Assembly: GCA_036898135.1 (NCBI GenBank) | Contig: CM072523.1 | Span: 32,343,811-32,407,810 of the forward strand | Reading direction: 5' to 3' | Source of the DNA: Oncomelania hupensis | Lineage: Eukaryota > Mollusca > Gastropoda > Littorinimorpha > Pomatiopsidae | DNA length: 64,000 bases | Part shown: positions 8,196 to 61,991 of the stretch, in pieces | Layout: each line of letters begins with the position of its first letter | Position numbering within the stretch: the stretch's first letter is position 1 | Position numbers and translations under genes: made by a program | Notes under the pieces: generated by a model | Database searches by the model: none | Told to the model about the DNA's origin: nothing | Seen by the model: the letters and a program-made list of their open reading frames with translations, nothing else

Positions 8196-8208
8196 GGCTG
8201 AGTGGTTA

Positions 8209-22939: not shown

Positions 22940-22990
22940 GACGGCCGAGAGACAACAAAGTAAATCCTCGTTTTCCCACTACTATAAAAA

Positions 22991-27788: not shown

Positions 27789-28351
27789 TTTTGGGGGTCA
27801 AGCCGCGATTCACGCCATAGCCAAGGGTTCAACTGCTACAACAAGCGAGTCAACGTTACGAGAGGCAGTCATCGAAAGTAGCCGCCAACGAGTTGCGTCG
27901 AGAGGGGCCAACATACTGGGACTACATCACCGATAGGTTCGGGTTGACTGCAAGGGCGTGTAGTCGCTGAAGAGTTGCTTCGTGAGCGAACAACAGATCG
28001 GGACTACGTGGCTGCCGTAAGACTACGTCGAGGGACAGTCTCGGAGCTACATCGCCAGTGTTACAGAGAGCGGCGAGCGGACGTCGCGTCTACTTCAGCA
28101 CAGGAGCGTATACATCAACACCAGCGTGGTGCAGCGTCGCATACGACGAGGACAGCGGGGCCTGCGTCAGCGAAGGCGACTAGTGACAAGCATCAGCGCT
28201 ACTGCAGAAAGCGTGCTGTTCTAGAACAGTCTAGAAAGGTACAGCACAGTCAAGAACTTTCCAGAAAAAGAACTCTACAGTCAAGAACTTTCTAGAAAAA
28301 GAAATTTCCAGAAAAGAACCTTCTAGAAAAGAACTTTCCAGAAGCATCAAG
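27789..28351 (+). other. Untranslated leader between 5' LTR and gag
   Basis: It begins TTTTGGGGGTCAAGCCGCG; the TGG-starting part from about 27792 is in the right place for a tRNA primer-binding site, but the tRNA was not identified. The middle is GC-richer with no obvious frame. The last 130 bp carry the heat-shock-element array. Confidence 0.6.
28254..28343 (+). promoter_or_regulatory. Array of five perfect heat-shock elements
   Basis: The HSF-binding pattern GAAnnTTCnnGAA occurs five times without mismatch: 28254-28266, 28285-28297, 28301-28313, 28316-28328 and 28331-28343. The last three are spaced 15 bp apart, and a two-unit TTCTAGAA lies at 28219-28226. The array ends 8 bp before the gag ATG. 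It could also be read as a short tandem repeat of about 15 bp that happens to fit the pattern, but the variable positions differ between copies while the GAA/TTC positions do not. Confidence 0.6.
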
Positions 28352-31300
28352 ATGGCTGACTTCTGGCAGAAAGGGGTTGAACTAAATCTAAAAGGCAAAC
28401 AGCTGACGGAGTACGTCAAATGCCAGGAGAGAATATTGCGTGAAAAAAGAGAAGAACAGCGACGGCGTGAAGAACGAGAATTAGAAGAGCAGCGTCGCCG
28501 TGAAGAACGAGAATTAGAAGAGCAGCGTCGCCGTGAAGAAAGAGAATTAGAATTGAAGCGTCTGGAAATTGAACAGCAACGGCAAGAAAGAGAAGAGCAG
28601 CGTAAAGAAAGAGAAGATGAGCGCAGGCGTGAGGAAAGAGAAGCTGATCGGCAGTTCCAACTAGAGTTGGCGCGCATCCAGCAACAGCAGCATGCGCCAC
28701 AAGTTATCAGTGACAACACGGCTCCAAAATTGCCAGCTTTCGTCGACGGGAAGGGCCAGATTGACAGTTATCTGGCGAGATTCGAAAGGTTCGCTGAAAG
28801 CTCTAACTGGCAACCTCAAGACTGGGCAATTCGACTGAGTGCACTTCTGACGGGGCAAGCTCTCGAAGTTTACACCAGACTGTCGAACGATGACGCCAAA
28901 AACTACGACGTCTTGAAAGAGGCCCTGTTGCAGTGCTACAACTTTACAGAGAAGGGCTACCGTAAACGCTTCCGTGAATGCCGGCCTAAGTCAGACGAGA
29001 CGCCAAAGCAGTTTGTGGAGCGCCTGTCGTCATATCTACACAAGTGGGTGGAGTTATCAGGCGAAAGGAAGTCTTACGACAGTCTCCATGACCTGATCGT
29101 GAAGGAACAATTTCTCAATGCCTGTCACAAGGACCTAGCGACCCACTTAGAAGAACAAAAGCTGCAGACGCTTAAAGATGTGACTGAGGCTGCTGAAAGA
29201 TATCTCATCGCTCATGGGAAGACCCTGGGGCCACCCAGCGCGACGAAACATTTTCAGAAGACTGCAAACCATGGGAACCAGATCCAAGGGAGCCAGACGA
29301 GCCAGAGACAGACGGACTCCACGCCTCCTCCCAGGGAAGGGCATTCAAGAGGCTGTTTCACCTGCAACGCTACAGACCACAGGGCGGCTAATTGTCCTCA
29401 AAACAAAAGTAGCGGACAGCGGAGGAGTACGGACAACGCAGCGGCGGGCAACCGGCAGAGGCGGTTCTCCAATCAACGGCAAACCAGTAGATCTGACCAT
29501 CAAGTGTGCGGCGGGAGCGTCATTCTTCCGAGTGAGACCAAGCGCACAGCTACTCCTGCGGACGTGCAAGAGTGCATGACCGATGGCCAACTCCTCCTTG
29601 CCAACGGAAAATCCATCCCCGTCGTCGCCAGCGCAGCTGTGACCGTCCAGAACATGCCTGTTTCAAAGGGACGCGTCGGAAATCATGAAGTGACTGTTTT
29701 AAGAGACTCTGGCTGCAGTGGGGTCATCGTCAGAGAAGACCTAATCGCTAAAGAACAGTTCACTGGCAATTTTAAATGGACACTCATGGCCGACAGCAAA
29801 TGTGTGAGAGCGCCAGTTGCGAAGATTCAAGTCAGCACCCCTTTCTACACAGGCGAAGTAGAAGCGGTTTGCCTGAAAAAGCCGCTATACGATTTGATGA
29901 TCGGGAATATCGACGGCGCGAGACGACCCGACGACCCCGATCCAGAGTGGAGTCCTGCCTCAACCCAACGCGTCGAAGTTGTGGAGGAGGATCCATTGCC
30001 ATTTCCCGATGGAGACCTTACAGAGCTGCTACGGGACAATGTGGTTACTCCGGCTCAGCCCTGCCGACCAGAGATCGTCGGTGCTGTTACTACCAGGGCC
30101 CAGGCCAAGAGAGACAAGACGTCTACGCCACTGAAGGTCGCCGACAACTCTAAAGCTGCCATCGTGGACAGAGATAAGCTTATCCAGCTCCAGGAAGCTG
30201 ATAGCACTTTAAACAAGTACAGGAACCGCCAAGACCACGTGACCAAAGGCAGTGGTACGGTCTATTTTGAGGTGAAGGCCAAGATCCTGTACCGAATCTT
30301 CCAGCACCCGAGGGTCAACGGAGGGAAACCACTACGTCAAGTCTTGGTACCGTTACCCCTAAGGCGCCAGGTGATGGAAGTAGCGCATGACTCAATCATG
30401 GGAGGTCACCTGGGTATCAAGAAGACGTCGGATAGAATCCAGGCGGTGTTCTACTGGCCAGGACTTCATGCGGACGTCAGCCGTTTCTGCCGATCATGTG
30501 ACATTTGCCAGAAGACCATACCTCGAGGAAGGGTCCCGAAAGTGCCTATGCAGAGGATGCCTCTGATCGACCGACCTTTCAAGAGGGTGGCCTTAGACTT
30601 AATCGGCGAAATAAGACCTCCGAGTGAAGAAGGTCATCGATGGGTACTGACTTTAGTGGACTATGCGACTCGGTACCCAGAAGCAGTGCCTCTGAAGAAG
30701 ATTGACACTGAAACTGTAGCAGAGGCACTGGTGGACATGTTCAGTAGACTTGGAGTGCCTGAAGAAATTCTGACAGACCTCGGGACGCAGTTCGTCTTTG
30801 ACTGCATGAAGGAGGTCAACAGACTGCTGAGCATCCGGCATTTAACTACGACACCCTACCATCCAATGTGCAACGGGCTCGTCGAAAAGTTCAATGCTAC
30901 GCTGAAGTCCACCCTGAAGAAACTGTGCAGCGAGCAGCCCAGACAATGGCATCGCTATATCAACGCCTTACTTTTCGCCTACAGAGAAGTACCGCAGGAG
31001 TCCACCGGCTTTTCTCCGTTCGAGCTGCTGTACGGAAGAACCATCAGAGGGCCGATGCACATCCTGAAAGAACTATGGACGAAAGAAGTAGAGACCCCAG
31101 AGGTGAAGAACAGCTACCAGTACGTGTTTGAGCTACGGGAGAAGCTGGAGCAGACTCTCGAGATAGCCAGAGAAAACCTGAAGAAGTCCCAAGACTGTGG
31201 AAAGCACTACTATGATCGTAGGGCTGTGAACAGGAAGTTTAAACCTGGCAACAAAGTGCTGGTGCTGCTACCTACCGACCACAATAAGTTGCCGATGCAG

Positions 31301-31903
31301 TGGAAAGGCCCGTACGAAGTGGAGACCGTGGTGGGGATCAACGACTACAAGGTGAAGGTCGGTCAGCATTCCAAGATATACCACGCCAACCTCCTTAAGC
31401 TGTACGTGGAAAGGCCATCAGAGACTGTGCACGCAGCCACAGCAGCTGTGACCGACAACAGCTTTGACAGCGAAGAACTGTTGGAACTGGGAGACTTCCA
31501 CAGCAAAGAAGGCATCGATGATGTTAAGCTAGGACCAAGCTTGACGGAAGGTCAAAAGATGGAGCTCAAGGACCTTATGGGCGAATTTCCCCATAGCTTC
31601 AGTGATGTCCCAGGCTCTACGACTTTGGTCGAACATGAAATCCACACCCAGACCTGGAAGGAGCATCTGCAGACCTTGAGGGAGCTGTTCCACCGTCCCG
31701 CAGAAGCCAACCTGACCGTGAGACCCAGCGAATGCATTCTGGGAGCTGACAACGTCGACTGCGTCGGACATCCGACGGAAGAAGGAGACAACGGAGGATG
31801 CACTGACTCCAGGAAAGCCCACGTGATCATCGTCTTTGACCCTGGGCCGATGACAACCGCAACTGACGAGGGCGTCGTTTCCTTGCGGATGAAAAATCAT
31901 TGA
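28352..31903 (+). CDS. gag-protease-integrase polyprotein with RT remnant
   Basis: 1183 codons from the ATG at 28352. In order: a charged Arg/Glu coiled coil (about 25-115) containing three near-identical 14-residue repeats; a gag capsid-like region (about 125-290); a CCHC knuckle CFTCNATDHRAANC (about 335); an aspartic protease with active-site DSG (about 452); an integrase HHCC zinc domain (about 680-715); a DDE core with D near 750 and 809 and E near 845 (35 residues between the last two); and a GPY/F module (MQWKGPYEV). Only then come the first about 30 residues of an RT domain (LTEGQKMELKDLMGEFPHSF), joined in frame to a piece from beyond the RT active site (TWKEHLQTLRELFHRPAEAN). The RT fingers and palm with YxDD, the thumb and RNase H are absent. 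The integrase has TDLGTQF where TDQGTQF is usual. Confidence 0.93.
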   Translation: MADFWQKGVELNLKGKQLTEYVKCQERILREKREEQRRREERELEEQRRREERELEEQRRREERELELKRLEIEQQRQEREEQRKEREDERRREEREADRQFQLELARIQQQQHAPQVISDNTAPKLPAFVDGKGQIDSYLARFERFAESSNWQPQDWAIRLSALLTGQALEVYTRLSNDDAKNYDVLKEALLQCYNFTEKGYRKRFRECRPKSDETPKQFVERLSSYLHKWVELSGERKSYDSLHDLIVKEQFLNACHKDLATHLEEQKLQTLKDVTEAAERYLIAHGKTLGPPSATKHFQKTANHGNQIQGSQTSQRQTDSTPPPREGHSRGCFTCNATDHRAANCPQNKSSGQRRSTDNAAAGNRQRRFSNQRQTSRSDHQVCGGSVILPSETKRTATPADVQECMTDGQLLLANGKSIPVVASAAVTVQNMPVSKGRVGNHEVTVLRDSGCSGVIVREDLIAKEQFTGNFKWTLMADSKCVRAPVAKIQVSTPFYTGEVEAVCLKKPLYDLMIGNIDGARRPDDPDPEWSPASTQRVEVVEEDPLPFPDGDLTELLRDNVVTPAQPCRPEIVGAVTTRAQAKRDKTSTPLKVADNSKAAIVDRDKLIQLQEADSTLNKYRNRQDHVTKGSGTVYFEVKAKILYRIFQHPRVNGGKPLRQVLVPLPLRRQVMEVAHDSIMGGHLGIKKTSDRIQAVFYWPGLHADVSRFCRSCDICQKTIPRGRVPKVPMQRMPLIDRPFKRVALDLIGEIRPPSEEGHRWVLTLVDYATRYPEAVPLKKIDTETVAEALVDMFSRLGVPEEILTDLGTQFVFDCMKEVNRLLSIRHLTTTPYHPMCNGLVEKFNATLKSTLKKLCSEQPRQWHRYINALLFAYREVPQESTGFSPFELLYGRTIRGPMHILKELWTKEVETPEVKNSYQYVFELREKLEQTLEIARENLKKSQDCGKHYYDRRAVNRKFKPGNKVLVLLPTDHNKLPMQWKGPYEVETVVGINDYKVKVGQHSKIYHANLLKLYVERPSETVHAATAAVTDNSFDSEELLELGDFHSKEGIDDVKLGPSLTEGQKMELKDLMGEFPHSFSDVPGSTTLVEHEIHTQTWKEHLQTLRELFHRPAEANLTVRPSECILGADNVDCVGHPTEEGDNGGCTDSRKAHVIIVFDPGPMTTATDEGVVSLRMKNH

Positions 31904-34272: not shown

Positions 34273-37200
34273 GTAAGCACCCCCATCTTGCTCCTTGCAC
34301 TTACCCCCGCTAGGCCACTTATTCTTTTCAGATAGAGCAAATGCAATGACATGGAAGACCTATAGTAATATTTTTTATGAAATCTGGACAAAAAACATTT
34401 TCAAGAGTTCTTGAAATATGGCGTGCAACGGACCGACCGACCGACCGACCTACCGCTCTCGTTCTGATTCCCAACTACAAAGTGTTCTCAGATAAGTCTG
34501 ATGGATACAAAGCGATATTTTTAGGCGCACCCAAACAGGGGAAGGGTTTGAGTGGAGAGAAGAAATACTTATTGCGGCTTAGACCCATATTCCCAAAACA
34601 TGACGTAAATGTAGATACCCAGTTGACTATTTTATCGACTTTGTTGTACTTTGCAGCATGAATCAGCCAACGGGTCAGCCAAGTATAGCAAGGATTCGAA
34701 CCCTGGCCGACGCTCTGCTCCTCCATCCAACAACGGTGTGATGTACTACCGGCCCAACCGCATGCACCAGTACCTGACGGCCACTGAGCTCAAGGATGCT
34801 GCAGAAGCCGAAGACGTTGTCAAATATGGCAGACCAACTCGAACCACGTGAGTTTTTAATGTTTCGCTCCACCAGAAATGTGCCTTCTCGGAGAAATATG
34901 CCGTTTCTGTTGTCGAAGGCTGTGTCTACCTGTTCAGCCCAGAACCCTCTTTTCAGATCAGATAAATTTATTAATTGTCGGAGCAGCACATAGATAGGTT
35001 ATGCATTTAAAATTAAGTGCTACGATTCAATTTCGAGAGATCTTTTGTTTTTGCAGTTAATGTCATGTTTACAATCCCTCAACACGGTGCATAGCTTCAA
35101 ATATTTAGGAGCCATTATATCAGACAATGGGTCCCGACAGGAAGGCCTCTCCAGGATCGCACAAACAACTGCTGCCCTGACAAGGTTGAAGCCCATTTGG
35201 AAAGACAGGACCATCAGTCTACATTCCAAAGTAAGACTGCTGCGTCCCTTGTCATCTCCATCTTCCTATATGCTTGCGAAGCATGGACCATCACAGCAGA
35301 TCTAAACGAAGAATACAAAGCATGGAGATGAGGTGCTACAGAAGACTTCTGGGCATTTCCTACACCCAACACATCACCAACGACGAAGTCCGACAGACCA
35401 TCACACAAGCCATTGGACAACATGATGACCTGCTCACAGTGGTGAAGAAACGGAAACTCCAATGGTATGGCCACGTCACCAGATCATCAGGCCTTGCAAA
35501 GACCATTCTGCAAGGCACAGTGCAAGGAGGTAGAAGAAGAGGGAGACCGAAAAAGAGGTGGGAGGACAACATTCGAGAATAGACTGGTTTGACACTGAGC
35601 GAAGCCATCAGGGCTGCTGAGAACAGAGAAAGATGGAGTATGCTGGTTAAACGATCATCTGTGGTGCCCCTACGGCCTCCGGGTTACGGGACAGGATAGG
35701 ATAGGATAGGTCATGTTTACTCATTCGGGACTGAAGGACGTTTTAAGAAATTGTTACAAAAAGTTTGTTTATTTTTAAATCAAAATGTCTGCTGTCCGAG
35801 GTTTATTAATAGGGAAGAACTCACAGTCTTTAAGATGTATGCATATATTTAAAAACGAAACGAAGCAAAATATTATGACTAAAGAACGCAAAGGCTTAGT
35901 GGTACCCATGGAATTGGGTGGTACCCATAGCTACTACATTGTTTCTGTGAAATCCATTCGCTAGTTGTGACTCTGTGTGAACATATTATATGCTGAATAG
36001 TATATTGAAGAAACAAAGTTTGTTTCAGCTTATTACGGGCCCGACTTAGGGAATCACCTTCTTCCAACGCTTACGAAGTTCGACGACAGTTAGAGCAACG
36101 TAAGTTCGTTGTTGGTCTGGTTGTTTGATTTGTTGGCTTGTTTGTTTGTGTGCGTGCTTGGCTCGTGGGCGTTTTGATACTGATGTGTGTGTGTGTTTGT
36201 GTGTGTGAGTGTAGGAGCGCGCGCGTGTGTGTGTGTGTTTGTGTGTCTGTCGATGTGTGTCTGTCTGTGTCAGTGTTTGTGTTATCTGTGTTTTGTGTTC
36301 AATGCCAGCATTGTTTATGGTTGTGTTATCAGGATAGGATTATGGTCGTGCTCGTCGAGTTTATGGTGGAATTCACTTGTATTGGTGGTGCCATTGGTGT
36401 GAAGGAGGTGGAGGGGGTCTGATTGTGATGATAATGATGACGATGGTAATGGTATTTTTGCTGCCTCTGATGTTGCTTCCTCTGCTACTGCTGCTGCTGC
36501 TGATGATGATGATGATGATTTCCGTTTTCAAAATATTGCAATACTTTATTTACTTGTTTTTACAGGCCTGGATGAAATAAAAACTGGAAGTATATTCAGA
36601 AATCCCAAAGAGTAAGTTTGTGCAAACTATTTCTTTCCAATACTTATCATTACTGAAATTGATGTATACTGTACAAGTCTTAGCAATGGATTGGAGTTGA
36701 CCCTGATTTGGCTCGGAAGAGTCCGCTGGACCTAAAGCAATAACCATGTAATGTAATGTAGCAATGGATTCTCGGTCATTTAAGATTCCTTTTATGTATT
36801 CTGAATCTTGTCTTCGCTCAGCAACAAACAGAACGTGGGCTATTAAAAAAACGTATTCTGTTAATTACTTTACTTTAATGGTAGTTTAATTTATTGTAGT
36901 TTAAATTAATTTGATTGTGTTGTGTTTTATTTTATCTAATTTAACTTAATGGTAGTTTAGTTTAATGTAATTTTAAATTATATAATTGTGTGGTATTTTA
37001 TCTATTTTAATTTAATTTAATTTTTATTTCAGGTTTGTTCACCAACAGCAGGACGTAGAGGGCGAATCGATTTATTCTTTTATTACTGGTGCTCGGTATA
37101 ACAGGTAGGCACGCAGTTTTCCCGACTGTTCGTCCGTGTGTCTCTTTGTTTGCCCCCCTCCCCCCACCTTCTCCTCTTCTCCCCCACTCCTTGCCTCTCT

Positions 37201-40754: not shown

Positions 40755-41675
40755 GTGACGAGATATGAATTTAATTGATGAGAAATGAATCCAGCAATAA
40801 TTGTTGTGCATCGTGTTTGAAGAATCAGTCGAACTTTTCAGCACCTCGCCTTGAGCATCTCTTTGAATTGATAAGTGCGCTATATTAAAATAATATTTTT
40901 GTACAATGTATTTTGCCTGGAAAGACCTAAAACGTGCTCAAATGATTTGTTGTTGTTGTTACGTCCATTTCACTCTTGACCCATCACTGGGCTAAGCGAG
41001 GGAGTCTGTGTATACTATAAAGCAAAACGGAATACCTTTTTAGGATGTAAAGGGTTAAACTTCAATTATGTTTTGCTTTGTTCTGTGACATAGATAATTA
41101 TATGTTATTAAAATAGACACTTTGTTGTGCAAAGAAATTGTAGTCGTTTTAAATAATTTCAAAATAAAAAAGGGTAAACACAAATTTATACTTTATACTT
41201 TCCTTTGGTTTTGTGTGTGTGTGTGTGTTGAATTGTATTTTTAAGCAAGCATTTTGTTTAATTTCGCATAATAGGAATTTGTGTGAAGGCAAGAAAAATT
41301 ATATGAATGATGCTTTGCTGCTGTTTTGACGTACAGACTGATAACTTTGTTTGTAATATCATTTTTCCAACTTTGTATAATTTTTCCCCCATTTTCCCCT
41401 GTATTATTATTATTGTTTGTTTTTGTGTACGTAAATAATTATTGTATTATGTTTTAATAATTATTGCGCATGTGAGTGTGCCTGTCAAATGGGCGCCAAA
41501 AAATTAAATGTTGCAAGTGCCAAACTTAATTATTGACTGTTTTGAAAATAATATATCCGTTCATCTCCATGAGTTAATGTCTTGGCGGTAACCTAACACT
41601 GTGCTTATATCAAGGGTCCTCGTTCATTTGAGCGCATGCTATTATATATAAACTACCTGTTGTTTGATGTAATAT
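40755..41675 (+). other. Probable 3' untranslated region and downstream intergenic DNA
   Basis: AT-rich. AATAAA occurs near 41163 (within CAAAATAAAAAAGG) as a candidate polyadenylation signal. No further frame. Confidence 0.5.
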
Positions 41676-42253
41676 ACCCCCGCTGGGGTGCCGGGGGTTT
41701 CAGTATAAATAGTATCCCCACTTTCTGGAAATTTAGTGCTTTAAATTCCCACTGTCGCTGTCTTTCTCATTTGTTCTTTCTCATTCCTGCTCTGTTCTAT
41801 CAATCTGCTATACTATCTTCTTCTTCGCTAGACCAGTCACCTATCATTTTTCTTGAAAACTCTTCCGGGACAAGACTCCTTATTTGTGTGTGAGGTCTGT
41901 TGGATCAGCTTGGGAATATTGGACGCTTTCTGCCAGGTGGTCACTAGGGCTTCCTATGATGTTATTATTTAGCAATGTAGGCATTTTATATGTATGTGTT
42001 TGGTTGATAATTTATAATGATGTTTGTATTCTATTTTGTTTTTGTAAACGGGGGCTCGATAAATAAGAGTATAGCCTCAGCGTCCCCTGCATGGGATGTC
42101 TTTATTGTAAAGTGACTGGTTGGTGGAGAGCGTTCAGTTTTACCACTAGGGTTGTTTCAGCAGATCTTTAATGCGGATCGGGGGTTGTCCGGTCCTGATT
42201 TGGCTCGGAAGAGTCCGCTGGACCTAAAGCAATAATCACGTAATGTAATGTAA
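41676..42253 (+). mobile_element. R family, short subtype, full length (578 bp)
   Basis: Starts ACCCCCGCTGGGGTGCCGGG, whose ends can pair as a hairpin, then has TATAAATAG about 30 bp in. Ends AGCAATAATCACG plus (TAATG)n. The duplication TGTTTGATGTAATAT / TGTTTGACGTAATAT (41661-41675 and 42254-42268, one mismatch) fixes both ends. It lacks the roughly 120-bp 5' block of the long subtype. Confidence 0.9.
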
Positions 42254-43040
42254 TGTTTGACGTAATATGGCCGGATTCTTTAAAGTGCCGCAAAAAACAT
42301 GTGCTGCTCTTGTATAATCATGGCACGAACCGTTTAGTACATACGCACTGAAGATCACTCGCTGTGTGCATGTCATCTTGTTCTTCTTCTTGTTCTTGTC
42401 TTCTTGTTCATCATCATCATCGTCATCATCATCATCATCATCATCATGATGATCATCATCATCATCATCATCATTATCATCATCTTCGTCTTCTTCTTTT
42501 TCTTCCTCAGCGGACAGCAATTATCTGACGTGTTCTGTTGTCTTTTTCAGAAGTGTTGGTTTTGCAAGAACATGAAACAGGCCATATTATTAAATATTGG
42601 CCGTGCTTGAACCTTCTATAGATATCTGCCGTATCGTGCGCATGAATTTTATATAATTTATAATTGTGTGCTTAATTCGTTGTATGATGTAAACTAGTGG
42701 TTTTGAGTTTTGTTATTGTCATCTGCATGTTTTTGTTTGTTTGTTTGTTTATTTCTTTGTTCTTTTTTGTTTGCATATCATGGGATCTTAGGGACAGATG
42801 TTCCATCGTCTAAAATGTTTTCATGACACTGATTTTTTTTGTACTTTGAAAAAAAAAGAGTAAAGATTGTGTCAATTTTCATGAATATGTTTCATTATTA
42901 TTTTCTGGTATATGAGCTGGTTATGGTTTGTGACTTTAAGAAAATCTTTGTCTTCTATTTGCAAATATTTTGTTGTCATTTATTGATCTCACATTCATAT
43001 TAAATGCCCTTGTCGTTATTTAAAATTATGTCTAGTTAGG
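42254..43040. other. Non-coding stretch with a (CAT)n tract at 42409-42486
   Basis: CATCAT/GATGAT compound repeat with an ATCATGATGATC palindrome at its centre. No gene seen. Confidence 0.6.
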
Positions 43041-43067
43041 CGATGATGATGATGATGGTGATGATGG

Positions 43068-43147
<80 letters not shown>
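43041..43147. repeat. (GAT)n microsatellite
   Basis: Nearly perfect 107-bp trinucleotide tract. Confidence 0.97.
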
Positions 43148-43151
<4 letters not shown>

Positions 43152-43610
43152 CTTATATAATGCCATTCGAAGCAGTCTAACTAACATTACATGCTCGATC
43201 AGCATTTTTTTTAGCAGTATTGTCACATGATATATTATATTTTTAATGCCGGGTTTTATTAACATTAGTGAAGATGATTCAAGCAATATTTTTTTATTTT
43301 AATTACTGTCTGCGTTTTGTTTCATTGGGCGCAGTTACGTATTCTACGTAGGCTATTTTCAACTTTATTTATTTATTTATTTAATATTATGTATTTATTG
43401 ATTATTTACACAACTTTTAAAACAGTTTTACACAAGCGCTTAGGTATGTGTTCGTACTATATTTGAAGAAACTATATCGTACAATTGTTCATCTTGCGTT
43501 GTTATTGTGAAGTGTTTGAATGGTGATTTTAAGAAAAACGTACGTTGCTGCTATGGCATTGTAATAATAATGCTCGCTGTGATACAAGTTGTATTTATTG
43601 TATTCAGTTG
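43148..43610. other. Non-coding stretch, no gene seen
   Basis: AT-rich, no repeat family identified. Confidence 0.5.
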
Positions 43611-43618
43611 TTCTATAT

Positions 43619-43952
43619 CAGGGGTGTCAAACTCACGTATAAGGTCGAGGGCGGAACAGGATAAACAGTCAATAAGCAAAATTCAATAACATTCAATAAT
43701 AATAGCTGAACGTGGCTAGGTTATTGTAACGACGAACATCCACTCCCTACACAACTTTTATTTTCACTTATTCTGATCGAAGCTTGCACTGAGGAAGCCT
43801 ATTGTTCAGCAAGGCTGCTAATTAGGGAATTTGATTTGCACTTTATATCGCAGGGCCATTGAAAATATGTTTTCCTAAAATTCGCTCTCGGGCCTTATAT
43901 AATTGTACGCCGGGCCTGATGTGACAGGCGGGCCTTGAGTTTGGAACATGTC
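43619..43952 (+). mobile_element. hAT-like MITE (334 bp)
   Basis: Starts CAGGGGTGTCAAACTC and ends near GGGCCTTGAGTTTGGAACATG, an imperfect inverted match, with internal GGGCCTTAT and CGGGCC blocks. Non-autonomous hAT elements with this CAGGGGTGTCAAACTC end are known in animals. The flanks TTCTATAT (43611-43618) and TTCTACAT (43953-43960) give an 8-bp duplication with one mismatch, the length expected for hAT. Confidence 0.75.
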
Positions 43953-43960
43953 TTCTACAT

Positions 43961-45189
43961 TATACTATAATATTATATAATGAAATATAAATCGGTGCAT
44001 CGCCCCCCTTGGGTCGTCTGCTGCAAAAGTGTATTACTTCCCTTGCGTAAAACGCGGTTTGCTTCCGAGATCAAATACAAATATAAAAAGCACTTTTTTT
44101 GTTGTTGGTTGATGGGTGGGGTGGGGAGGATGCGGGGTGAGGGTGGGGGTAACAAGTGGACAGTTTAATTTTATTGTATTGTGTTGTTAAGAGTTAGGCT
44201 GTGTAATAAATAACATGAGTAACTTATGCTGTGGTTACTCTTCTTGTTGTTATTGTAAAGTTGTAATGACGAATTGTTATGTTTTCGTCATCAGTATTAA
44301 AAATCCCCAAAAGCGCAATTGTGATATTTGGTGATGTCCTGTAAGTAAATAATTCAAAATATATATATTTGTGATATATGTCACCATACTGCTTAAATAA
44401 AATTGTTGTTAGTGAGTAATTCGCTTTCTGCTTTTTAAAATATAATTTCAAGTGATGTGAAGAATGTTTTGAGTGTATTATTCGCTTAATGTTTTCCAAC
44501 CCCACCCCCCGTCCCTTTTCACCTTTTGGTTAATAATATAATTTTAACTGAAATCTGTTGAAGCCTTTGCTAGAATATGAGGGCTTTGACGTTGGTTTGG
44601 TTGCATGCAAGCATGGTGGTCTGGAGAAGTCTTATTTGTTTATAATGTATTCACATTTCAGCATTTTGTTTTAAATTCAATCTCTTTTTCTTTGTTTGCA
44701 GAGTTATCCCACATTTTATTCTCTCCCCTCCCCCCTCTCCACGTCCACCTCCTTACCCCACATCTAATGTAGTGTTGATTTGGTTAATGCTAATTGTGTT
44801 TCTCTTCACTTCAGCGTCAACGGTTCGTTTTCTTACACAGCTGAATGGATAGATAATAAACACAAGAACGTGATAAAGTGCTATGTCCTGTTTCGTGGAA
44901 CTATTTTTCTTCAGTGAGCTGTGCGTTCCCTTATTCACCGAGAGAGTGACAGAGTGATTGAGTGAGCATGTATCACAGGCGCGCGCGCTCTCACACACAC
45001 GCATACAAAAAACACAGAGATATAATATGATGTTGTTTAATGGTTATAAGGACTTTTTTTGGTGAAAATTACTTTAAATATATTATTTTTATTCACTTTT
45101 ATTTTTATAAAATTGTGTTTTTTTTAAAAATATTATTTCAAAAATCTAATATCATTTAATTTGTAAACAGACTATAAATAAATCGATTG
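43961..45189. other. Non-coding stretch, no gene seen
   Basis: AT-rich. The last 30 bp (AATAAATCGATTGAATTGAA) resemble an RTE tail and were the target of the next R insertion. Confidence 0.55.
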
Positions 45190-45202
45190 AATTGAACTCA
45201 GA

Positions 45203-45893
45203 CCCATTGGGGTCATGAGCAATCTTGCCACTGTAGATTGTTCTAACCTATAAAGGGAAAAGGGAAAGCCCCAGTTGAAAACCTGTCTTTCCTTTATAGG
45301 TATTGCCGATTCACTGCGGCAACAGTACCCCCGTTGGAGTGCCGGGGGTTTCAGTATAAATAGTAACCCCACTTTCTGGAAATTTAGTGCTTTAAATTCC
45401 CACTGTCGCTGTCTTCCTCATTTGCTCTTTCCCATTCCTGCTCTGTCCTATCACTCTGCTATACTATCTTCTTCTTCGCTAGATCAATGACCTACCTTTT
45501 TTCTTGAAAACACTTCCGGGACAAGACTCCTTGTTTGTGTATGAGGTCTGTTGGATCAGCTTGGGAGTATTGGACGCTTTCTGCCGGGTGGTCACTAGGG
45601 CTTCCTATGATGTTATTATTTAGCAATATAGGCATTTTATATGTATGTGTTTTGTTGGTAATTTATAATGATGTTTGTATTCTGTTTTGTTTTTGTAACC
45701 GGGGGTTCGATTAGTTGGGGTAAAGCCTCAGCCGTCCCCTGCGTGGGATGTCTTTATTGTAAAGTGACTGGCCGGTGGAGGGCATTCAGTTTTCCCACTA
45801 GGGTTGTTTCGGCAGATCTTTTATGCGGATCGGGGGTTGTCCGGTCCTGATTTGGCTCGGAAGAGTCCGCTGGACCTAAAGCAACAATCAATC
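45203..45893 (+). mobile_element. R family, long subtype, full length (691 bp)
   Basis: Starts CCCATTGGGGTCATGAGC and ends AGCAACAATC(AATC)n. Perfect 13-bp duplication AATTGAACTCAGA (45190-45202 and 45894-45906). Contains the 10-bp inverted pair CCTATAAAGG / CCTTTATAGG in its 5' block and the ACCCCCG...CGGGGGT hairpin at the point where the short subtype would start. Confidence 0.92.
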
Positions 45894-45906
45894 AATTGAA
45901 CTCAGA

Positions 45907-46575
45907 GGCACGCACGCTCCCCCTCCGCTTCTCCCACCCCCCACACAAACACAATTACTCACGCAAATATTTAAATTAACGTACATGTCGTACTTAGATA
46001 AGTGAAATTGATGTAAGGGAAATTATGTTCCTGTGTGCAATAACAATTTCTTTATCATAGATATAGGCCTATTTGTCTTGCTTTTTGTCATTTGGGATTA
46101 GCACCACACTGCAATGCAATTTCTCAGTGAGATAATAAAGTGTTTGTAATCGTAGTAGTTTATTCCACAATACAGATGGCCAAACACAAGCGCGTTTAGC
46201 TTCTTGCTTTTCACACAGCTTTTGTGCAAAACAAGACGCTCTCTAAATATAAGCTACAGTTCTGCCGCGTAATGAGCAAGTCCATCTTTATCAAAGTATT
46301 TTTATATTCTCCTAGTGGAACATATTCAGTGTAAGTTTTATAGTCGAGTGTAATTAAACTGCGAAATGTAGACGCATAGGTCATCAAAACACAAAATGTA
46401 AATCATAGAGACTCATTATAAGTCGATTCCTCAAACTTGTGTCGCTGTTGAACTTGCCTTGTTTTGCTATCACACCACGGCAGTGCTCTGTACAACAGCT
46501 AGTGTTTGGTGTTTCCCATAATGACACAGTGTACACTGTAGGCTAAGTGAACTGTTTTTTTTCTGCGTCATTCAG
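45907..46575. other. Non-coding stretch, no gene seen
   Basis: No repeat family or frame recognised, apart from the pyrimidine tract at 46553-46563 before the candidate exon. Confidence 0.5.
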
Positions 46576-46693
46576 TCAGAGCCAGGAGTCAGTGCCAGGC
46601 CAGCAGTCAACACGAAGGGACGACGATACCAAGAAGGACAGCGGTGACGACGACAACCGCGCAGGACTTCAGTGGAGGAAAATGTTGGTGTAG
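46576..46693 (+). CDS. Candidate terminal exon, acidic
   Basis: After TTTTTTTTCTGCGTCATTCAG an open frame encodes SQESVPGQQSTRRDDDTKKD and SGDDDNRAGLQWRKMLV before a TAG at 46691. The composition resembles the acidic tail of the gene at 34-41 kb, so an alternative last exon of that gene is possible. There is no homology evidence. Confidence 0.3.
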
Positions 46694-46877
46694 TATTTTA
46701 CTTTCTTAGTATCTTAGGAGATTGGTGTGGTACTGGTAAATGGTATAGTAGCGCTTGCTGATGGTTTCTCCCTGTAAGGGTTGACATCTAAGTTCATTTA
46801 GGACTTCTGATGTTAGTTCTTACGAAGACACGAGTATGCCCTACAGGCGTCTTTGCCTCCACGAGTCGCTAATTCAG

Positions 46878-47024
46878 CCTTTAAAATATTTTGTCGGTCC
46901 CGAGGACGACAGCACCGCAGAAGGAGGACTGCCAACCCAGGACGGACCGCCGCGGCCAGGAAAGAACGGGACGGAAAAGGAAAACGGAAGGGAAAAGGAT
47001 GGGGTGCGTGAGAGCGAGCCATGA
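46878..47024 (+). CDS. Candidate terminal exon, charged
   Basis: After GCTAATTCAG the frame reads PLKYFVGPEDDSTAEGGLPT and continues with GKNGTEKENGREKDGVRESE to a TGA at 47022. Codon and amino-acid composition differ from the surrounding AT-rich DNA. Its relation to 46576-46693 and to the gene at 34-41 kb is unclear. Confidence 0.3.
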   Translation, partial: PLKYFVGPEDDSTAEGGLPTQDGPPRPGKNGTEKENGREKDGVRESEP

Positions 47025-47134
47025 ATGTTTTGATTTTGTGGAAAGTAGATGCACCTACTTTGAGATCTCTACAGTCATGTGGCAATGAATAAGGGTGTTA
47101 ATAATTTGTTATGCTGTATGCACCAACCAATATT

Positions 47135-47756
47135 CTTTCCTAGTTCCATCAGGAACTGGTTCAGAACAACCATCGGCGTTCGTCAAGGATGCCTACTCGC
47201 TCCAACGTTCTTCAACATCTTTCTAGAGCGCATCATGTCAGATGCCCTTGCAGATCATGAAGGCAGAGTCAGCATAGAGAGTAGAGCAATCCCCAACCTC
47301 AGTTTTGCGGATGACATTGATGGATTGGCTGGAGAGAAACAATAACTTGAACAGCTAATACAGAGGCTTGACACCATCTCCAGAGCCTTTGGAATGGAAA
47401 TAAGCAAAGATTAGACGATGATAAATAAATCCAATGGCATCAACACGGACATCAAAGTCCAAGGTCAATCCCTCAACACGGTACACAGCTTTAAAATTTA
47501 GGAGCCATTGTATCAGACAATGGGTCTCGACAGGAAGTCCTCTTCAGGATAGCACAAAATTGCTGCCCTGCGCTCCTTTGTCATCTCAATCTTCCTATAC
47601 TTTTGCGAAACATGGACCCTCGCCGCAGACCTACAACGAAGTATAAAAAGCGTTTAGATGAGGTGTTACAGAAGACTTCTTTGCATTTCCTATGCCCAGT
47701 ACATCAGCAAATCACCAAAGACGAAGTCCGAAAGACCATCACACAAGCCATTAGTT
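47135..47756 (+). pseudogene. RTE-like LINE fragment with intact FADD motif, broken frame
   Basis: Encodes IRNWFRTTIGVRQGCLLAPT, LSFADDIDGLAGEKQ, then stop and frame changes (near 47344 and beyond) through VNPSTRYTALKF and later RTE C-terminal debris with several small deletions. It ends abruptly where an R copy begins. Confidence 0.85.
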
Positions 47757-48313
47757 AGTTAGTTAGTTATCATTGCTTACAGGGTCCAGTGGACTGCAAA
47801 GAGCCGAATCAGGACCACATAATCAAGACCACAACTTGGCTGAAAGAGGACTCATCCATGATCCGCATAAGAGATCTGCCGAAACAGCCCTAGTGGAAAC
47901 ACTGAAGGCACTTCACCAGCCAGTCACTTTACAATAATATGCCACGCTGGGAACGCTGATGCTATACTTTAATTTATCGAACCTCCATTTACAAAAACAA
48001 AATAGAATACAAACATCATTATAAAATATCAACAAAATATATACATATAAAATTCCTACATTGCCAAATAATAATATCATAGGAAGCCCCATTGACCATT
48101 TGGCAGAAAGCGTCCAATATTCCCAAGCTGATCCAACAGACCTCACACACAAATAAGGAATTTTGTCCCGGAAGAATTTTCAAGAAAAAGGATAGGGGAC
48201 TGGTCTAGCGAAGAAGATTTTATAGCAGATTGATAGAACATAATAGGAATGAGACAGAACAAAAGAGAAAGACAGCGACAGTGGGAATTTAAAGCACTAA
48301 ATTTCCAGAAGCA
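47757..48313 (-). mobile_element. R family, 5'-truncated copy with a different tail
   Basis: Minus-strand R copy. Its tail reads (CTAA)n instead of (AATC)n or (TAATG)n. Homology ends at TTTCCAGAA near 48313, before the TATAAATAG block, and there are extra bases (for example AAGACCACAACTTGGCTGAAAG) not seen in other copies. It is more diverged than the rest. No duplication was found, and the RTE copy does not resume on its far side. Confidence 0.85.
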
Positions 48314-48866
48314 TGTTCTTTTTCTGGTGCGACGGATATAAAGAAACGTACTACATGCAGCGGATTGAAATGGGCATGTCCGGATCTTGTGCCTAAGAGT
48401 CGTGAAGGTGTAATGCTTATACGTTAGACTGATTAGTTTACGTTATAACGCGACACTGTACCTTAAAGTAACGAATTATTTTCATACCATCCTTTGATTT
48501 ATGAGAGGTAGGGAGTTAATGTCATACATTCCATTGATTTAATGAGTTAACGTGATACGATACGGTTGACCGCGCTGCAAACAATACATGGGGAACGATG
48601 CCCCAAGTGTGTGTGAGAGAGAGATCGACGAGCGCGCGTGCCTATGTGTGCGTCCTACAGGGCTGAGCTTTAACGTTCGCCAACTCGCCAATGGCCCCTA
48701 AAAATAGTGTGTGGCGAGCTCGATTTGGGGTACCATTCGCCCGGCTGGCGACTTGAAAATACCGCCAGTGGTAGAGATTATGTACCTGTACACGGACTTT
48801 TGACTTGCAATGTAAAACAAAACACGCGCCAACCGCTTCTGCAGTCAGCACCGGAGACCCGTTCCG
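48314..48866. other. Non-coding stretch, no gene seen
   Basis: Unique sequence with a few GC-richer blocks near 48620-48860. Confidence 0.5.
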
Positions 48867-48879
48867 ATGCATGCTAGGA

Positions 48880-49559
48880 CCCCTTGGGGTCATGAGCAAT
48901 CTTGCCACTGTAGATTGTTCTAACCTATAAAGGGAAAAGGGAAAGCCCTAGTTGAAAACCTGTCTTTCCTTTATAGGCATTACCGATTCACTGCGGCAAC
49001 AATACCCCCGTTGGAGTGCCGGGGGTTTCAGTATAAATAGTATCCCCACTTTCTGGAAATTTAGTGCTTTAAATTCCCACTGTCGCTGTCTTCCTCATTT
49101 GCTCTTTCCCATTCCTGCTCTGTCCTATCACTCTGCTATACTATCTTCTTCTTCGCTAGATCAATGACCTACCTTTTTTCTTGAAAACTCTTCCTGGACA
49201 AGACTCCTTGTCTGTGTATGAGGTCTGTTGGATCAGCTTGGGAGTATAGGACGCTTTCTGCCAGGTGGTCACTAGGGCTTCCTATGATGTTATTATTTAG
49301 CAATATAGGCATTTTATATGTATGTGTTTTGTTGATAATTTATAATGATGTTTGTATTCTATTTTGTTTTTGTAACCGGGGGTTTGATTAGTTGGGGTAA
49401 AGCCTCAGCCGTCCCCTGCGTGGGATGTCTTTATTGTAAAGTGACTGGCCGGTGGAGGGCATTCAGTTTTCCCACTAGGGTTGTTTCAGCAGATCTTTTA
49501 TGCGGAGCGGGGGTTGTCCGGTCCTGATTTGGCTCGGTAGAGTCCGCTGGACCTAAAGC

Positions 49560-49590
<31 letters not shown>
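48880..49590 (+). mobile_element. R family, long subtype, full length (711 bp)
   Basis: Starts CCCCTTGGGGTCATGAGC and ends (AATC)n. Perfect 13-bp duplication ATGCATGCTAGGA (48867-48879 and 49591-49603). Very similar to the copy at 45.2 kb, so probably among the youngest. Confidence 0.93.
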
Positions 49591-49592
<2 letters not shown>

Positions 49593-49827
49593 GCATGCTA
49601 GGAAGTTAGGTAACGCTAGCAAAGCGAGGGATTTGCGAAGTAAAAATAGCCTTTTCTCGCGAGACTTTCTTCTTTCCCTCGCCGCGAAACGCTACTGCCC
49701 TGCGAGATCCTAGCCTTCTTGCTTCCTTGCGTGTATCGGAACGAGTCTCTGACTTCCTTGATGAGTCACGCGAGACTTGCCGTACTTTCGATATTCCCCA
49801 TTCTCAGTCTTTTGTCAATCTCGAACG

Positions 49828-50267: not shown

Positions 50268-50450
50268 GAGGGGCCGGGTAGCTCAGTTGGTAGAGCGTCT
50301 TACTAGTGACCGAAAGGTACCTGGTTCGAATCCCGGATTGGCCAATGTGTGACCATATTATTTTCCCCTTACCATCAACTGGTTCGCTGGTGTCAGAATA
50401 ATGTGACCAGTAGTCGCCTATACGCTTCGGTGTCGTGTGACTATAATCTA
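50268..50450 (+). mobile_element. tRNA-derived SINE, fourth copy
   Basis: Same family as 13.5 kb. Box A reads GTAGCTCAGTTGGTAGAGCG without the extra A, and box B GGTTCGAATCC. The body is more diverged, with a deletion before the TATAATCTACAG end. The AAC tail is nearly absent and no duplication was identified, so this is an older copy. Confidence 0.85.
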
Positions 50451-53670: not shown

Positions 53671-54037
53671 GTAAGTGTACGAATAGTTATACTAAGTTAT
53701 TGCAGTTGAATAAGAACAAAGGATTCGTATGCCATATCGACAATAGTGGGTGTGAAAGTTAAACGTCAATGTTCATTCATTCTCAAGAACAAAGAATTTA
53801 CCATCCATATTTATTTTCTCGTTCCTAATTGGCGCTTTTCTAGGTTCAAAATCTGTTCAAGGCACTGTCCGATATACGATCTAACTTCAGCCGCCAGCGA
53901 CTCTCACTTGCACTTCGGGCGCATAGTCCCTGAAAAACTGTGCCCAGTTAAACATTAATTTTCTTGAATTTAACCGCCTGCGATTATCTGTGTGATGTAG
54001 TGTGATGCCTAAAATCATTGTAAAGAAACAGAAAGAC

Positions 54038-54098
54038 TCGGTCCTGATTTGGCTCAGAAGAGTCCGCTGGACCTAAAGCAACAATAAATCAATCAATC
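54038..54098 (+). mobile_element. 61-bp 3'-end fragment of R family (AATC tail)
   Basis: Holds GGTCCTGATTTGGCTCAGAA, GTCCGCTGGACCTAAAGCAA and an AATC tail, between perfect 11-bp duplications AACAGAAAGAC (54027-54037 and 54099-54109). Confidence 0.88.
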
Positions 54099-54497
54099 AA
54101 CAGAAAGACGAATATATCGCAATGTATCTCTGTGACGTTTCTGTCTGCTGAGTATACTCAAGCTTACGAAATATAGTTACAATTAATTGTGAACAGCGCT
54201 GTACGTATATGTTGTTTCAGTATTCTACTGTACATTTATTATAATATGCTGTATATATCGTTCAATTACTATTTTACGTGGTGCGTATTTGGTGTGATGA
54301 AGACAGTAAATGGTTCATAGTTGTAGTAGGTGTATTTTCGGAGTCTGATTGCTAGCATAATATTTAGTGTGCAGATTGGGTTTACAAATATCAACCAATT
54401 TTAAGGCGACATGCAACGTTAACAAGTGGGTGTATGTTTTTTTTCGTGTCTTAGTGTGCTTTTGTGTGCGCGCTTTTGTATGAGTGTATGTGTCTCA

Positions 54498-55278: not shown

Positions 55279-58200
55279 TGTTCAGTTCAGTTTGTTTATT
55301 GTCTTTTCCAGCAAGCTGATAAGACATTTAAAAAAATTAGATTAGATTACCAACAGGAGAGTCCAGCAATACTTTGGACAGTTTGATTCCGAGTTGAAAA
55401 TCTACATCACTGAAACTGACCTTCCCTTGCAATTCATATGGCAGTAAGGGCTTAATTTGATCATATTCAAATAAAACATGCTGTAATGAGATGGATGCAT
55501 CACAAACACACTTTACATCTTTACAGTGCTTAGTTTTAATGGCACTGAGCAAAATTCTGTTAGTCATCGTAAGCACAGCTCTTGAGTAACCATTTAATGG
55601 ATTGTCTTGTTTCTTAAAGTCAAGAGTACTTTTCATTATACTTTCAATTTCATTTTGAATTTCTTTTGAAGATTTCATAACTTCAATGTATCGAGAATTT
55701 AATTGTAAAGCACCTTGTTTAGCCCCTTTATCTGCTAATTAATTATAGAAAAAAAAACACTGTGATGGTAACCAGCAGAAAGAGATGTTTGTGCCATTAA
55801 TGATTAAGCTGTGAATAATATGTCTAATTTCTATTATTAAATCTCTTCTATTTTTATTATTTTGAGATTGTAACGCTTCTAGCACTGACATTGAATCAAC
55901 ACATATAACTATTTGAAAAATACTGATCTGAAGACTGGATATGTTTCTTAGTGCCATTAAGATTGCTATCAGTTCGGCTGTAAATATAGATAGATTCTTG
56001 CCCAAGTAAAATGATTCGTTCATTTTTAAATCAGGAATAACATATGCTGCACCTGTTTCACCTGATGATAAAACAGAACCGTCAGTGTACACTTTTAAAT
56101 GTTGAGAATAAACAGAATCTATGTGTTCACGAGCCTCAGTTGTAACTAAGTTACTATTAACACTTTTGAATGTGTTACAATAATGAATATCAAACTTACC
56201 CTTCATCATCTCCCAAGGAGGCATTGGTGAAGAAATATCTGTCTTAAGTCTTTTTATGTCCTCTACCGTAGAATCAATTAAGTCTTTAGTATATGTAGAA
56301 ATCGTTTCTAAGAATCTAACATTTTGTGCTCGTTTTGGGTATTCTAAATCAGACCTAAACAACAACTCTTCATTAGTACTATTGCAAATATTAGGTGCTC
56401 TTACGATATAATTATTTAACACAAGCCAACTTTCTCTGTTCATCCAGGGGCATAATTCCTGCTAACATATAAGATTTAGTTGTATTTGTATGCACGGGAA
56501 CACCTAGGGCTAATTTTATAGCCTTGCTATCTAGACTTTTCAACTTATTTAAATAACTCTTCGGAGCTGAAAAATATGCTTCCTGCCCGTACATTAATTT
56601 AGATCTGACAAGTGAAGTTGCTAAATGAACGAGTGTCTTTATATCTTGACCCCATGATTTTATACTAATGATCTTTAATAAATAATAACTTTTTAAAGCA
56701 TTCTGAATTAAATACTCAATATGTCTTGTCCATTTTAACTTCCTTGTTAGATACACACCTAAAAATTTAATCTCAGCAGTATATTCAATTTCTTCATTTT
56801 CTATCAATATTTTAGGCAGTTTTCTTGGTACTTGACAGTTACTAAAAAGCATCATTTTAGTTTTTTCCTTAGATAATTCTAGGCCATTAGATATCATGTA
56901 CTTGTTTAAACTATTTATTTCTGTTTGATAAACTAAAGTAATGTGTTTTATTTCATACAAAGAAGTTTTCTTTTTTAGATTAACATTCATCCATATAGCA
57001 ATGTCATCAGCATATTGAACAAGAGTAACCCTGTTACTGAAAACTTTTGGCAAATCGTAGATTAAAATGTTGAACAAAATTGGAGATATTATTGCCCCTT
57101 GAGGAATACCCATATTCGTCAAATGACTTGATAAATAACAATTTCCAACTTTAACTTTTATAGATCTATTTTGTAAGAAAGTTTTTATAAAATTATACAT
57201 GTGTCCAGATAATCCAATTTGCTTTATTTTGAAAAGTAAACGTGCATGCCAAACTCTGTCGTATGCTCTTGTAATATCAAAAACTGTTGCTAAAACTCCT
57301 TTACGCTTTGCAAATTGTCTTTTAATATGCGTTGTTAGCTTAACTAAATGATCAACAGTCGAACGGCCTTTTTGAAACCCAGCTTGATTGATAGGAATTA
57401 TTTTTTGTTTGACGCAATAATGTGATAACCGTTCCAATACAACTTTCTCCATTGTTTTACAGGCATGTGACGTCAACGCGATAGGCCTATAACTTGAAAC
57501 AACACTGCGAGATTTGCCAGATTTTGGTAATAAGATAATTAGAGATGTTTTCCAGAATTCGGGCAAGGTACCTTTTGCCCAACTATTTGCTATAATTTCA
57601 TGTAAAATGTGGAGCCAATTGTCAGGAATATTAGATAAAAGTTTGTATGAGATTCCGTCTAATCCTACCGCTGAATTCTTTCGTCCAAATTGTAATACTA
57701 CATTTTTAACTTCTTCAAACGTTATGTCGGCATTATAATATAAACTATTATTGGGTAGAGGAGGCTCAAATGTAGGACTACTTTCTTCATTTTCTCTTTG
57801 CTGTTGTATGTGACTAGGCAAACTAGACGACTGACTTACATTAGCAAATACTTTTACAAATTCATCAGCCTTCTCTAATGATGTTGGAACTGTATTATTT
57901 GTTAGCTTTATGGGACATTTAGGGAGACTGTATCCATTTTTCATTTCTGACAACTTTTTCCAAATTTTAGCAGAGTCCTGATAACTATTGATTTCAGAAT
58001 TACAATAATTTGACCAAAATGCTTGTTTTTCGCTAGCAATGGTTTTGTTACAATTTATTTTTGTCTTCTTCATTTCAATAAATGATTGTTCTGTTCTATT
58101 TTTCAACCATGTTTTATATGCTACCTTTTTCTCTTTTACTGCATTTTTACACTGTTCGTTGCACCAAGTATTTCCGGTTCGGGATTTTTTCGTATATGTT

Positions 58201-59085
58201 TTTTTCTTGGGAATAGACCTAGAAGCTGCGTCATGAATACTCTTAACAAAAGTATTATACACTTCATTAATATCCTTCTTCTTAGTAAAAGAAGTATCAG
58301 TATGTAATAAAATTTCTTTAAAGATATCCCAATTAGCCCGAGCATAGTGATATTTTGCCACAGGATCTTGCTCAATGCCCACTTCAACACAATCATTGCA
58401 AGTGATTACGATGGGGAGGTGATCACTGCCTAAAGTATCCGTCTCAACCTCCCATATACAGTCTGCATAAAGATCAGGAGTAGTAAAAGATAGATCAATG
58501 GCAGATGGTTGATGTGTAGATACATCTGGCACGCGAGTGATTCTTCCATCGTTAAGTAATAAAAGGTCAGAGTTAACAATATTTTCACTTAGACGGTTTC
58601 TGGAAAAGTAACAGTTATCATCCCAAAGAGACGAGTGGGTATTAAAATCTCCACAAAAAATACTGGATTCTGACACATTAAAAGATTGCATCCAGTTAAG
58701 GTTTGCATGATCTGTTCCCTTAGGATAATAAACAGAGAAAATGTTTACACACAACTGACTATTTATCTTGATTTTCGCACATGCGCAATAGCTATCACAA
58801 TCGTTTATACTGGTAGGACTCAATAAAACATAATCCAAGTCATGACGAATGTAAAAGCCTGGACTTTATCACTGTTTGTGTTGATTATGGGGGGGATAAT
58901 AATACCCCTTCAGTTTTGGTAGCTTGCGTTTGTTAACATTTAATGACTGTAAGGGTAGAACATGGTGGTCTGTTTCAGACAAATATTGTTCCAAATAATG
59001 TAAGTTAGTAACTAGCGAGCGACAGTTCCACTGAAATACTGAAAGTTTTTCACTTTTCATACTACAAAAACTAAAAACATATGGA
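55279..59085 (-). mobile_element. Second I/Nimb-like LINE, ORF2 only, decayed
   Basis: Related to the LINE at 16-23 kb with the same ORF2 domain order. The minus-strand 3' end reads AATAAACAAACTGAACTGAA, a pentamer tail at about 55279-55300. No ORF1 is found upstream of 59060, so the copy is 5'-truncated near the start of ORF2 or has lost ORF1. Confidence 0.85.
55337..59060 (-). pseudogene. ORF2 pseudogene: endonuclease, RT, RNase H
   Basis: Recovered in pieces: 59060-58869 (FQWNCRSLVTNLHYLEQYLS, LPLQSLNV, GYYYPP); 58838-56412 (GDFNTHSSLWDD, GSDHLPIVI; RT with RPIALTSHACKTMEKV, FDITRAYDRVWH, MGIPQGAIISPILFN, QYADDIAIW); 56443-55739 (KVYTDGSVLSSGE, FTAELIAILMAL, VDSMSVLEALQSQ, CWLPSQ); and 55678-55337 (C-terminal tail with a CKDVKCVC motif). 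Lesions: two consecutive stops near 58865-58870 by a C7 run, a frameshift near 56420-56440, and a stop at 55739-55741 inside RNase H, where a Glu codon of the usual N-E-L-A-D stretch has become TAA. RT motifs are otherwise preserved. Like its relative it has LQSL in place of QET. Confidence 0.9.
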
Positions 59086-61345: not shown

Positions 61346-61391
61346 GTGCCGTGGTATGTTGTTTTGTGTTGTCAGGTTTTATTGAAGTATA

Positions 61392-61978
61392 TTACCCCCG
61401 TTGGGATGCCGGGGTTTCAGTATAAATAGTATCCCCACTTTCTGGAAATTTAGTGCTTTAAATTCCCACTGTCGCTGTCTTTCTTTTTTGCTCTTTCTCA
61501 TTCTTGCTCTGTTCTATCAATCTGCTATACTATCTTCTTCTTCTCTAGACCAGTCACCTACCTTTTTTCTTGAAACTCTTCCGGGACAAGACTCCTTATT
61601 TGTGTATGAGGTTGTGTATGAGGTCTGTTGGATCAGCTTGGGAATATTGGACGCTTTCTGCCAAATGGTCAATGGGGCTTCCTATGATGTTATTATTTAG
61701 CAATGTAGGCATTTTATATGTATGTGTTTTGTTGATAATTTATAATGATGTTTGTATTCTATTTTGTTTTTGTAAACGGGTGTTCGATAAATTAGAGTAC
61801 AGCCTCAGCGTCCCCTGCGTGGGATGTCTTTATTGTAAAGTGGCTGGCTGGTGGAGAGCTTTCAGTTTTACCACTAGGGTTGTTTCAGCAGATCCTTTAT
61901 GCGGATCCGGGGTTGTCCGGTCCTGATTTGGCTCGGAAGAGTCCGCTGGACCTAAAGCAATAATGATGTAATGTAAAG
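61392..61978 (+). mobile_element. R family, short subtype, full length (about 587 bp)
   Basis: Starts TTACCCCCGTTGGGATGCCG and ends AGCAATAATGATG plus TAATG. Perfect 13-bp duplication TTATTGAAGTATA (61379-61391 and 61979-61991). An extra GAGGTTGTGTAT duplication near 61608 is private to this copy. Same 5' end and tail class as 41676-42253. Confidence 0.9.
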
Positions 61979-61991
61979 TTATTGAAGTATA

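Follow-up and report, generated by a model that had tools for sequence, protein, structure and literature searches.

How do copies of a repeat without genes come to differ from one another at both ends at once? The question is raised by a 64,000-nucleotide stretch of the Oncomelania hupensis genome (hereafter the window; C13:32343811–32407810 in an assembly of 1.45 Gb in 428 contigs), in which blastn, with one long and one short copy as queries, located nine copies of a repeat family that we call R: three long (L), two short (S), one diverged (M) and three reduced to the tail region. An initial annotation, made from the letters of the window, had counted the same nine copies in 64 kb and divided them into two subfamilies with two master elements, perhaps mobilized by different partners among the long interspersed nuclear elements (LINEs) or driven by different promoters. 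We observe precise starts, repeat tails and target-site duplications, and a hairpin sequence ahead of the tail in all lineages. Taken together, R is probably a gene-less, LINE-dependent retroposon whose M, S and L lineages succeeded one another, with L descending from one founder and with copies consisting of only the hairpin and tail as a second outcome.

The R copies in the window, and the parts of them on which the argument turns, are as follows (window positions).

45202–45893 (+): L copy with an (AATC)n tail; duplications at 45190–45202 and 45894–45906, the first A being shared.
48879–49590 (+): L copy with an (AATC)n tail; duplications at 48867–48879 and 49591–49603.
7489–8194 (−): L copy with an (AATC)n tail; duplications at 7476–7488 and 8196–8208.
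41676–42253 (+): S copy with a (TAATG)n tail; duplications at 41661–41675 and 42254–42268, with one mismatch.
61394–61978 (+): S copy with a (TAATG)n tail; duplications at 61379–61391 and 61979–61991, with two extra T ahead of the start.
About 47761–48310 (−): 5′-truncated M copy with an (AACT)n tail and 32 extra bases ahead of the hairpin; duplication not clear.
54038–54098 (+): hairpin-only copy of L type; duplications at 54027–54037 and 54099–54109.
36693–36758 (+): tail-only copy of S type that starts near the hairpin base; duplications at 36681–36692 and 36759–36770.
About 4785–4817 (+): tail-only copy of S type that starts within the hairpin, flanked by an imperfect duplication, TTATTGCCTATTT / TTACTGCCCATTT, recognized by eye.
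45202–45326 (+): 5′ block unique to L, folding into consecutive predicted hairpins (z −3.79; 0 of 200 shuffles as stable).
45843–45876 (+): 3′ hairpin GGTCC..GGACC, identical at 42191–42224 in the copy at 41676.
41704–41712 (+): TATAAATAG, 28 bp downstream of the S start.

Three long and two short copies had been recognized before, with (AATC)n tails on L and (TAATG)n tails on S, and only their exact starts move, by one or two bases, because A is the first base of the element itself (ACCCCTTGGGG in L, ACCCATTGGGG at 45202 and ACCCCCG in S). Compared letter by letter, the duplications of these five full copies measure 13, 13 and 13 bp in L and 15 (one mismatch) and 13 bp in S, within the range of 13–15 bp first given. 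Among forward frames, the longest spans 78 codons in L and 72 in S, in keeping with the reported lack of an open reading frame (ORF), and there is no reverse transcriptase ORF. R presents the variable-length target-site duplications, repeat tail and lack of genes of a retroposon, whose RNA would be copied into target sites through target-primed reverse transcription. The 60-kb stretch to the right of the window contains no R match. L copies in the window share 95–97% identity with each other, S copies 95%, and L with S 90–92%; 20 columns, two of them in the tail, distinguish these L copies from these S copies. Although L and S differ at both ends as described, they are not the only types, because M, with its (AACT)n tail, about 32 extra bases ahead of the hairpin and a different hairpin loop, forms a third. 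M is 83–84% identical to L and 88% to S, and at the 20 distinguishing columns it reads as S in 16, as L in 1 and as neither in 3.

Copies elsewhere in the genome were collected in two ways. A full-length L query gave 3,168 first-look candidates, of which the best 40 were scored (97–100% identity, all spanning query base 1 or 2 to at least 693); 28 of these 40 loci were read, together with window copy 48880, likewise one of the 40. L001, which is window copy 45202, was dropped, and L003, L044 (3′ end missing) and L059 (interrupted at the edge of its locus) do not enter the start–tail counts. A further 20 copies were picked solely by an extended 3′ end, TTGTGGTCC, which as an exact pattern has 119 matches in the genome and none in the control; judged by eye, about two thirds of the 100 matches listed continue as an R-type 15-bp tandem and the remainder as unrelated flank. 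All fetched DNA, including the window, amounts to 326.8 kb and contains 103 R pieces. Duplications scored at least 9 in 29 of the 31 rows of the L sample (the misses being L002 and L014), a count taken with no mismatched-pair control in which one row repeats the window copy and three sit in one CT repeat; flanks are shared by L057 and L058 and by the two copies in L077. Among the 20 copies with the extended 3′ end, 12 start no more than 14 bases from the S start, six start elsewhere (L085, L087, L090, L093, L094 and L104), one is split and one is of M type; none has the L start.

Start and tail are linked in these copies. The L start is paired with (AATC)n in 31 of 31 copies, 29 of which begin at one identical A; the S start is paired with (TAATG)n in 18 of 18 (6/6 plus 12/12 from the extended-3′-end set, one of the six being split by a nested L copy); and M bodies combine the S start with (AACT)n in 3 of 3 (L042 twice and L050). 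Free mixing of starts and tails, which had been named as the observation that would overturn the linkage, does not occur among the 31 L, 18 S and 3 M copies read. The association is also present in the unselected copies alone (4 L versus 9 S or M; Fisher 0.0014, counts sorted by hand). Two points weigh on the other side: the L sample is biased, 27 of its 31 copies being best matches of the full-length L query, and one L-body copy whose start was not seen, nested in L092, has an (AATA)n tail. In addition, three L copies of the linkage count share one flank. L008, L009 and L027 are L copies on two contigs with a common CT-repeat flank and downstream sequence, and probably represent one insertion that was later duplicated, because the flanks are shared. 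The best reading of the linked ends is descent from one L founder rather than the use of two partners.

The order of the lineages comes from 41 bodies placed in a FastTree phylogeny with the two L042 copies as root; this tree is nested in the order M, S, L. Its 32 (AATC)n copies all fall in a single clade (support 0.81), and support rises to 1.0 when the S copy L033 is added. Because the body tree is nested in this way, the S start appears to be ancestral and the L 5′ block appears to be a late, single gain. R thus appears to have passed through three or more lineages in succession; each has a tail of its own, and the most recent also has a new 5′ end. Of the initial proposal, the joint change of start and tail and the distinct founders are supported, but two parallel masters are not, given the nested tree and the three or more tail types. 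The L lineage looks young, with a divergence of about 1% in the best-match sample (mean 0.96% from the consensus for 28 L copies, all best matches). Its 5′ block of about 125 bp opens with ACCCC-TTGGGGT, which resembles the S start ACCCCCGTTGGGGT found about 125 bases further on in L, and it folds better than 200 of 200 shuffles; the S 5′ end is unremarkable (z −0.42). The oldest lineage, M, would thus have carried the (AACT)n tail and the S start; S would have had (TAATG)n and a different hairpin loop; and L would have arisen within S, acquiring a structured 5′ block of about 125 nt whose first bases nearly repeat the S 5′ end, retaining the hairpin and finishing with an (AATC)n tail.

What the lineages have in common lies at the 3′ end. 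Ahead of the tail, the predicted fold has an outer stem GGTCC/GGACC, an inner stem GGCUC/GAG(U)CC and a GGAA loop; this 34-nt hairpin is common to the S and L copies in the window, and the loop differs in M. A 3′ hairpin with a bulged stem (in R, in the predicted fold) followed by short repeats is also found in eel UnaL2/UnaSINE1 and zebrafish ZfL2-1 and ZfL2-2, which belong with the stringent L2/CR1 LINEs. In ZfL2 LINEs the protein binds the 3′ hairpin and the hairpin loop governs recognition (PMC4176376), and rotating the S tail unit TAATG gives the unit of the eel UnaL2 tail, [TGTAA]n (PMC5135761). R differs in hairpin sequence and in its GGAA loop, as against the GGAUA quoted for UnaL2, and no partner LINE was found for it. 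From this likeness we infer the enzyme, its clade and the role of the hairpin: S and L would have been moved by one stringent, perhaps L2-like (L2/CR1-type) LINE, probably recognizing the 34-nt hairpin ahead of the tail. Several results count against this proposal. Relative to shuffled sequences, hairpin stability is raised only slightly in L (z −1.7) and S (z −2.0), so that the role of the hairpin rests on analogy, and the M hairpin is no more stable than expected (z −0.05, with 90 of 200 shuffles equally stable). Nor was a partner LINE found: none of the four LINE 3′ ends read in the window matches R, and the genome was not searched for LINEs.

Two different LINE partners for S and L, as originally suggested, would account for tail units that differ and are linked to different starts. 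We consider this unlikely, because S and L share one 34-nt hairpin and in ZfL2 the loop governs recognition. Moreover, tail units vary within S-type hairpin-only copies, of which 50 were fetched (TAATG in 32, TATTG in 10, short or other in 8), and (AATA)n follows an L body; given this variation, the tail unit seems to drift by itself. A change of partner may fit the step from M to S, possibly marked by the new hairpin loop, better than the step from S to L.

The hairpin also marks the start of a separate class of copies. These were sought with a pattern in which the hairpin is preceded by seven bases all unlike R, with the hairpin start fixed and C at −1 excluded; it has 489 exact matches (251 + 238) and none in the control. 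Duplications scoring at least 9 flank 36 of the 50 fetched copies, as against 10 of 2,450 mismatched pairs, and the median distance from the hairpin start to the second duplication is 60 bases. In 49 of the 50 S-tail hairpin-only copies T stands ahead of GGTCC, although A and G were also allowed. This T is explained as template, because older S copies mostly read GTGGTCC at the hairpin base; a second pattern, with GT ahead of the hairpin, has 383 exact matches. Both L-tail hairpin-only copies (L069 and the window copy at 54038) read C-GGTCC, the same as L. The base ahead follows the lineage, T in older S copies and C in L, so that in two lineages genuine insertions begin at the base of the hairpin. 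Among unselected copies, 7 of 11 are truncated at the hairpin (1.5e-10; counts sorted by hand, with L026 of the seven at a locus edge). On the other side, truncation also occurs away from the hairpin, in 6 of the 20 extended-3′-end copies, and the pattern itself set the hairpin start by design.

A sharp 5′ end, 489 exact matches and a (TATTG)n tail that was not seen on full-length R copies could also describe an independent element of about 60 bp with its own transcript, rather than failed copies of R or a LINE. This too we regard as improbable, because the base ahead of GGTCC tracks the lineage and because such an element is too short for an ordinary internal promoter. If hairpin-only copies instead belong to R, their common occurrence would reflect an enzyme that leaves the template just past its anchor hairpin, or a template already trimmed to the hairpin base. 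We offer, tentatively and as a minority expectation of our own, that they record a failed step of the LINE: the enzyme anchored to the hairpin would have to leave its anchor to become processive, and would often fail, in a manner that can be likened to promoter clearance by RNA polymerase.

Somewhat less plausibly still, R might be the terminal portion of a LINE, or a LINE with an internal deletion, with breaks favoured at two points, as its LINE-like tail, 5′ truncation and hairpin would allow. However, 29 of 31 L copies start at one identical base, no long frame is present (78 codons at most), and R sequence continues upstream in 20 of 20 extended-3′-end copies, a result that involved no search for R sequence in the rest of the genome or in LINE 3′ ends. 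Neither LINE coding sequence nor both LINE ends are attached to any of the 31 L-start or 20 extended-3′-end copies fetched. Identity with the 3′ untranslated region of a known LINE, the other outcome that had been named as fatal to the family, was not encountered in these copies and finds no support in them. Among the closest known likenesses are SIDEs such as Persaeus of Lepidoptera (PMC6740152), which are short, gene-less and dependent on CR1-type LINEs, as R would be; a SIDE is a shrunken LINE, whereas a LINE-derived body is not seen in the R copies fetched.

No promoter of the R RNA was located. As initially reported, no clear RNA polymerase III (Pol III) box pair is present: the first 150 bases contain no box A even when one mismatch is allowed, and the sole hint of such a promoter is a weak B-box-like GGTTCGATTAG at L 503, with 2 mismatches and no counterpart in S. 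Internal runs of at least four T number 7 in L and 5 in S. The lack of a box pair together with these T runs disfavours Pol III, and transcription by RNA polymerase II seems more likely from the sequence; S and L may, as was also suggested, use different promoters. TATAAATAG had been noted about 30 bp from the S start and is indeed there, at 28 bp, and also inside L. A TATA box acts about 30 bp upstream of the transcription start; TATAAATAG lies downstream of both starts, does not explain the RNA behind these copies and was rejected as its promoter. A known RNA family or ribozyme was likewise rejected for the copy at 45202, as 45190–45910 has no Rfam match up to E 5. A classical short interspersed nuclear element (SINE) transcribed by Pol III, suggested by the size, tails and lack of genes, is the least probable of the alternatives given the missing box A, the inner T runs, the absence of Rfam matches in the copy at 45202 and the absence of any tRNA called by ARAGORN in the window. 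A lone Rfam tRNA match of 31.3 bits at 50272–50344 (+), not called by ARAGORN, is perhaps a tRNA-derived SINE.

Searches beyond the genome returned little. As an exact pattern the hairpin has 0 matches in IMG/VR (26 bases) and 0 in GTDB contigs (23 bases); in the literature, the matches listed for the hairpin and tail letters contained only a 10-letter string and neither of two longer strings, and none of the papers listed for such a family or for truncation at hairpins showed a matching description. Matetovici et al. 2016 reportedly described gastropod and bivalve SINEs, possibly from the same host group as R.

R copies also lie inside one another. L copies at C12:15774345 (L006) and C6:13337657 are nested in older R copies at a near-identical R position, about 267–284, which suggests a target preference; of the two, L006 was the one fetched. 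L092 is an older S copy split by the nested L-body copy with the (AATA)n tail, and L100 is an M copy with an (AACT)n tail that contains a truncated S copy. L050 is an M copy that holds a hairpin-only copy, and in L097 an inverted hairpin-only copy surrounds an older S copy; both nestings are useful for dating. Other retroelements of the window are a LINE at 16707–22978 (−), in which a single 1,320-aa frame carries RNase H as well as endonuclease and reverse transcriptase domains and the frame upstream of it matches nothing in Pfam; a similarly organized LINE at 55337–58865 (−), whose endonuclease and reverse transcriptase lie in 56412–58865; and, at 28235–31903 (+), a frame resembling a long terminal repeat retroelement, with integrase domains, a zinc knuckle and a SCAN match.

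In the series M, S, L, tail and start change stepwise and the hairpin is kept or changed separately, which makes it possible to distinguish what the hairpin, the tail unit and the 5′ end each do. The sharply defined hairpin-only class suggests that LINE reverse transcription fails at one particular step, testable in UnaL2 or ZfL2 assays. If the proposed failure to leave the anchor is real, hairpin-only copies would serve as a gauge of anchor clearance wherever a genome has a stringent LINE, and a unit of about 60 bp would be the smallest that is mobile.

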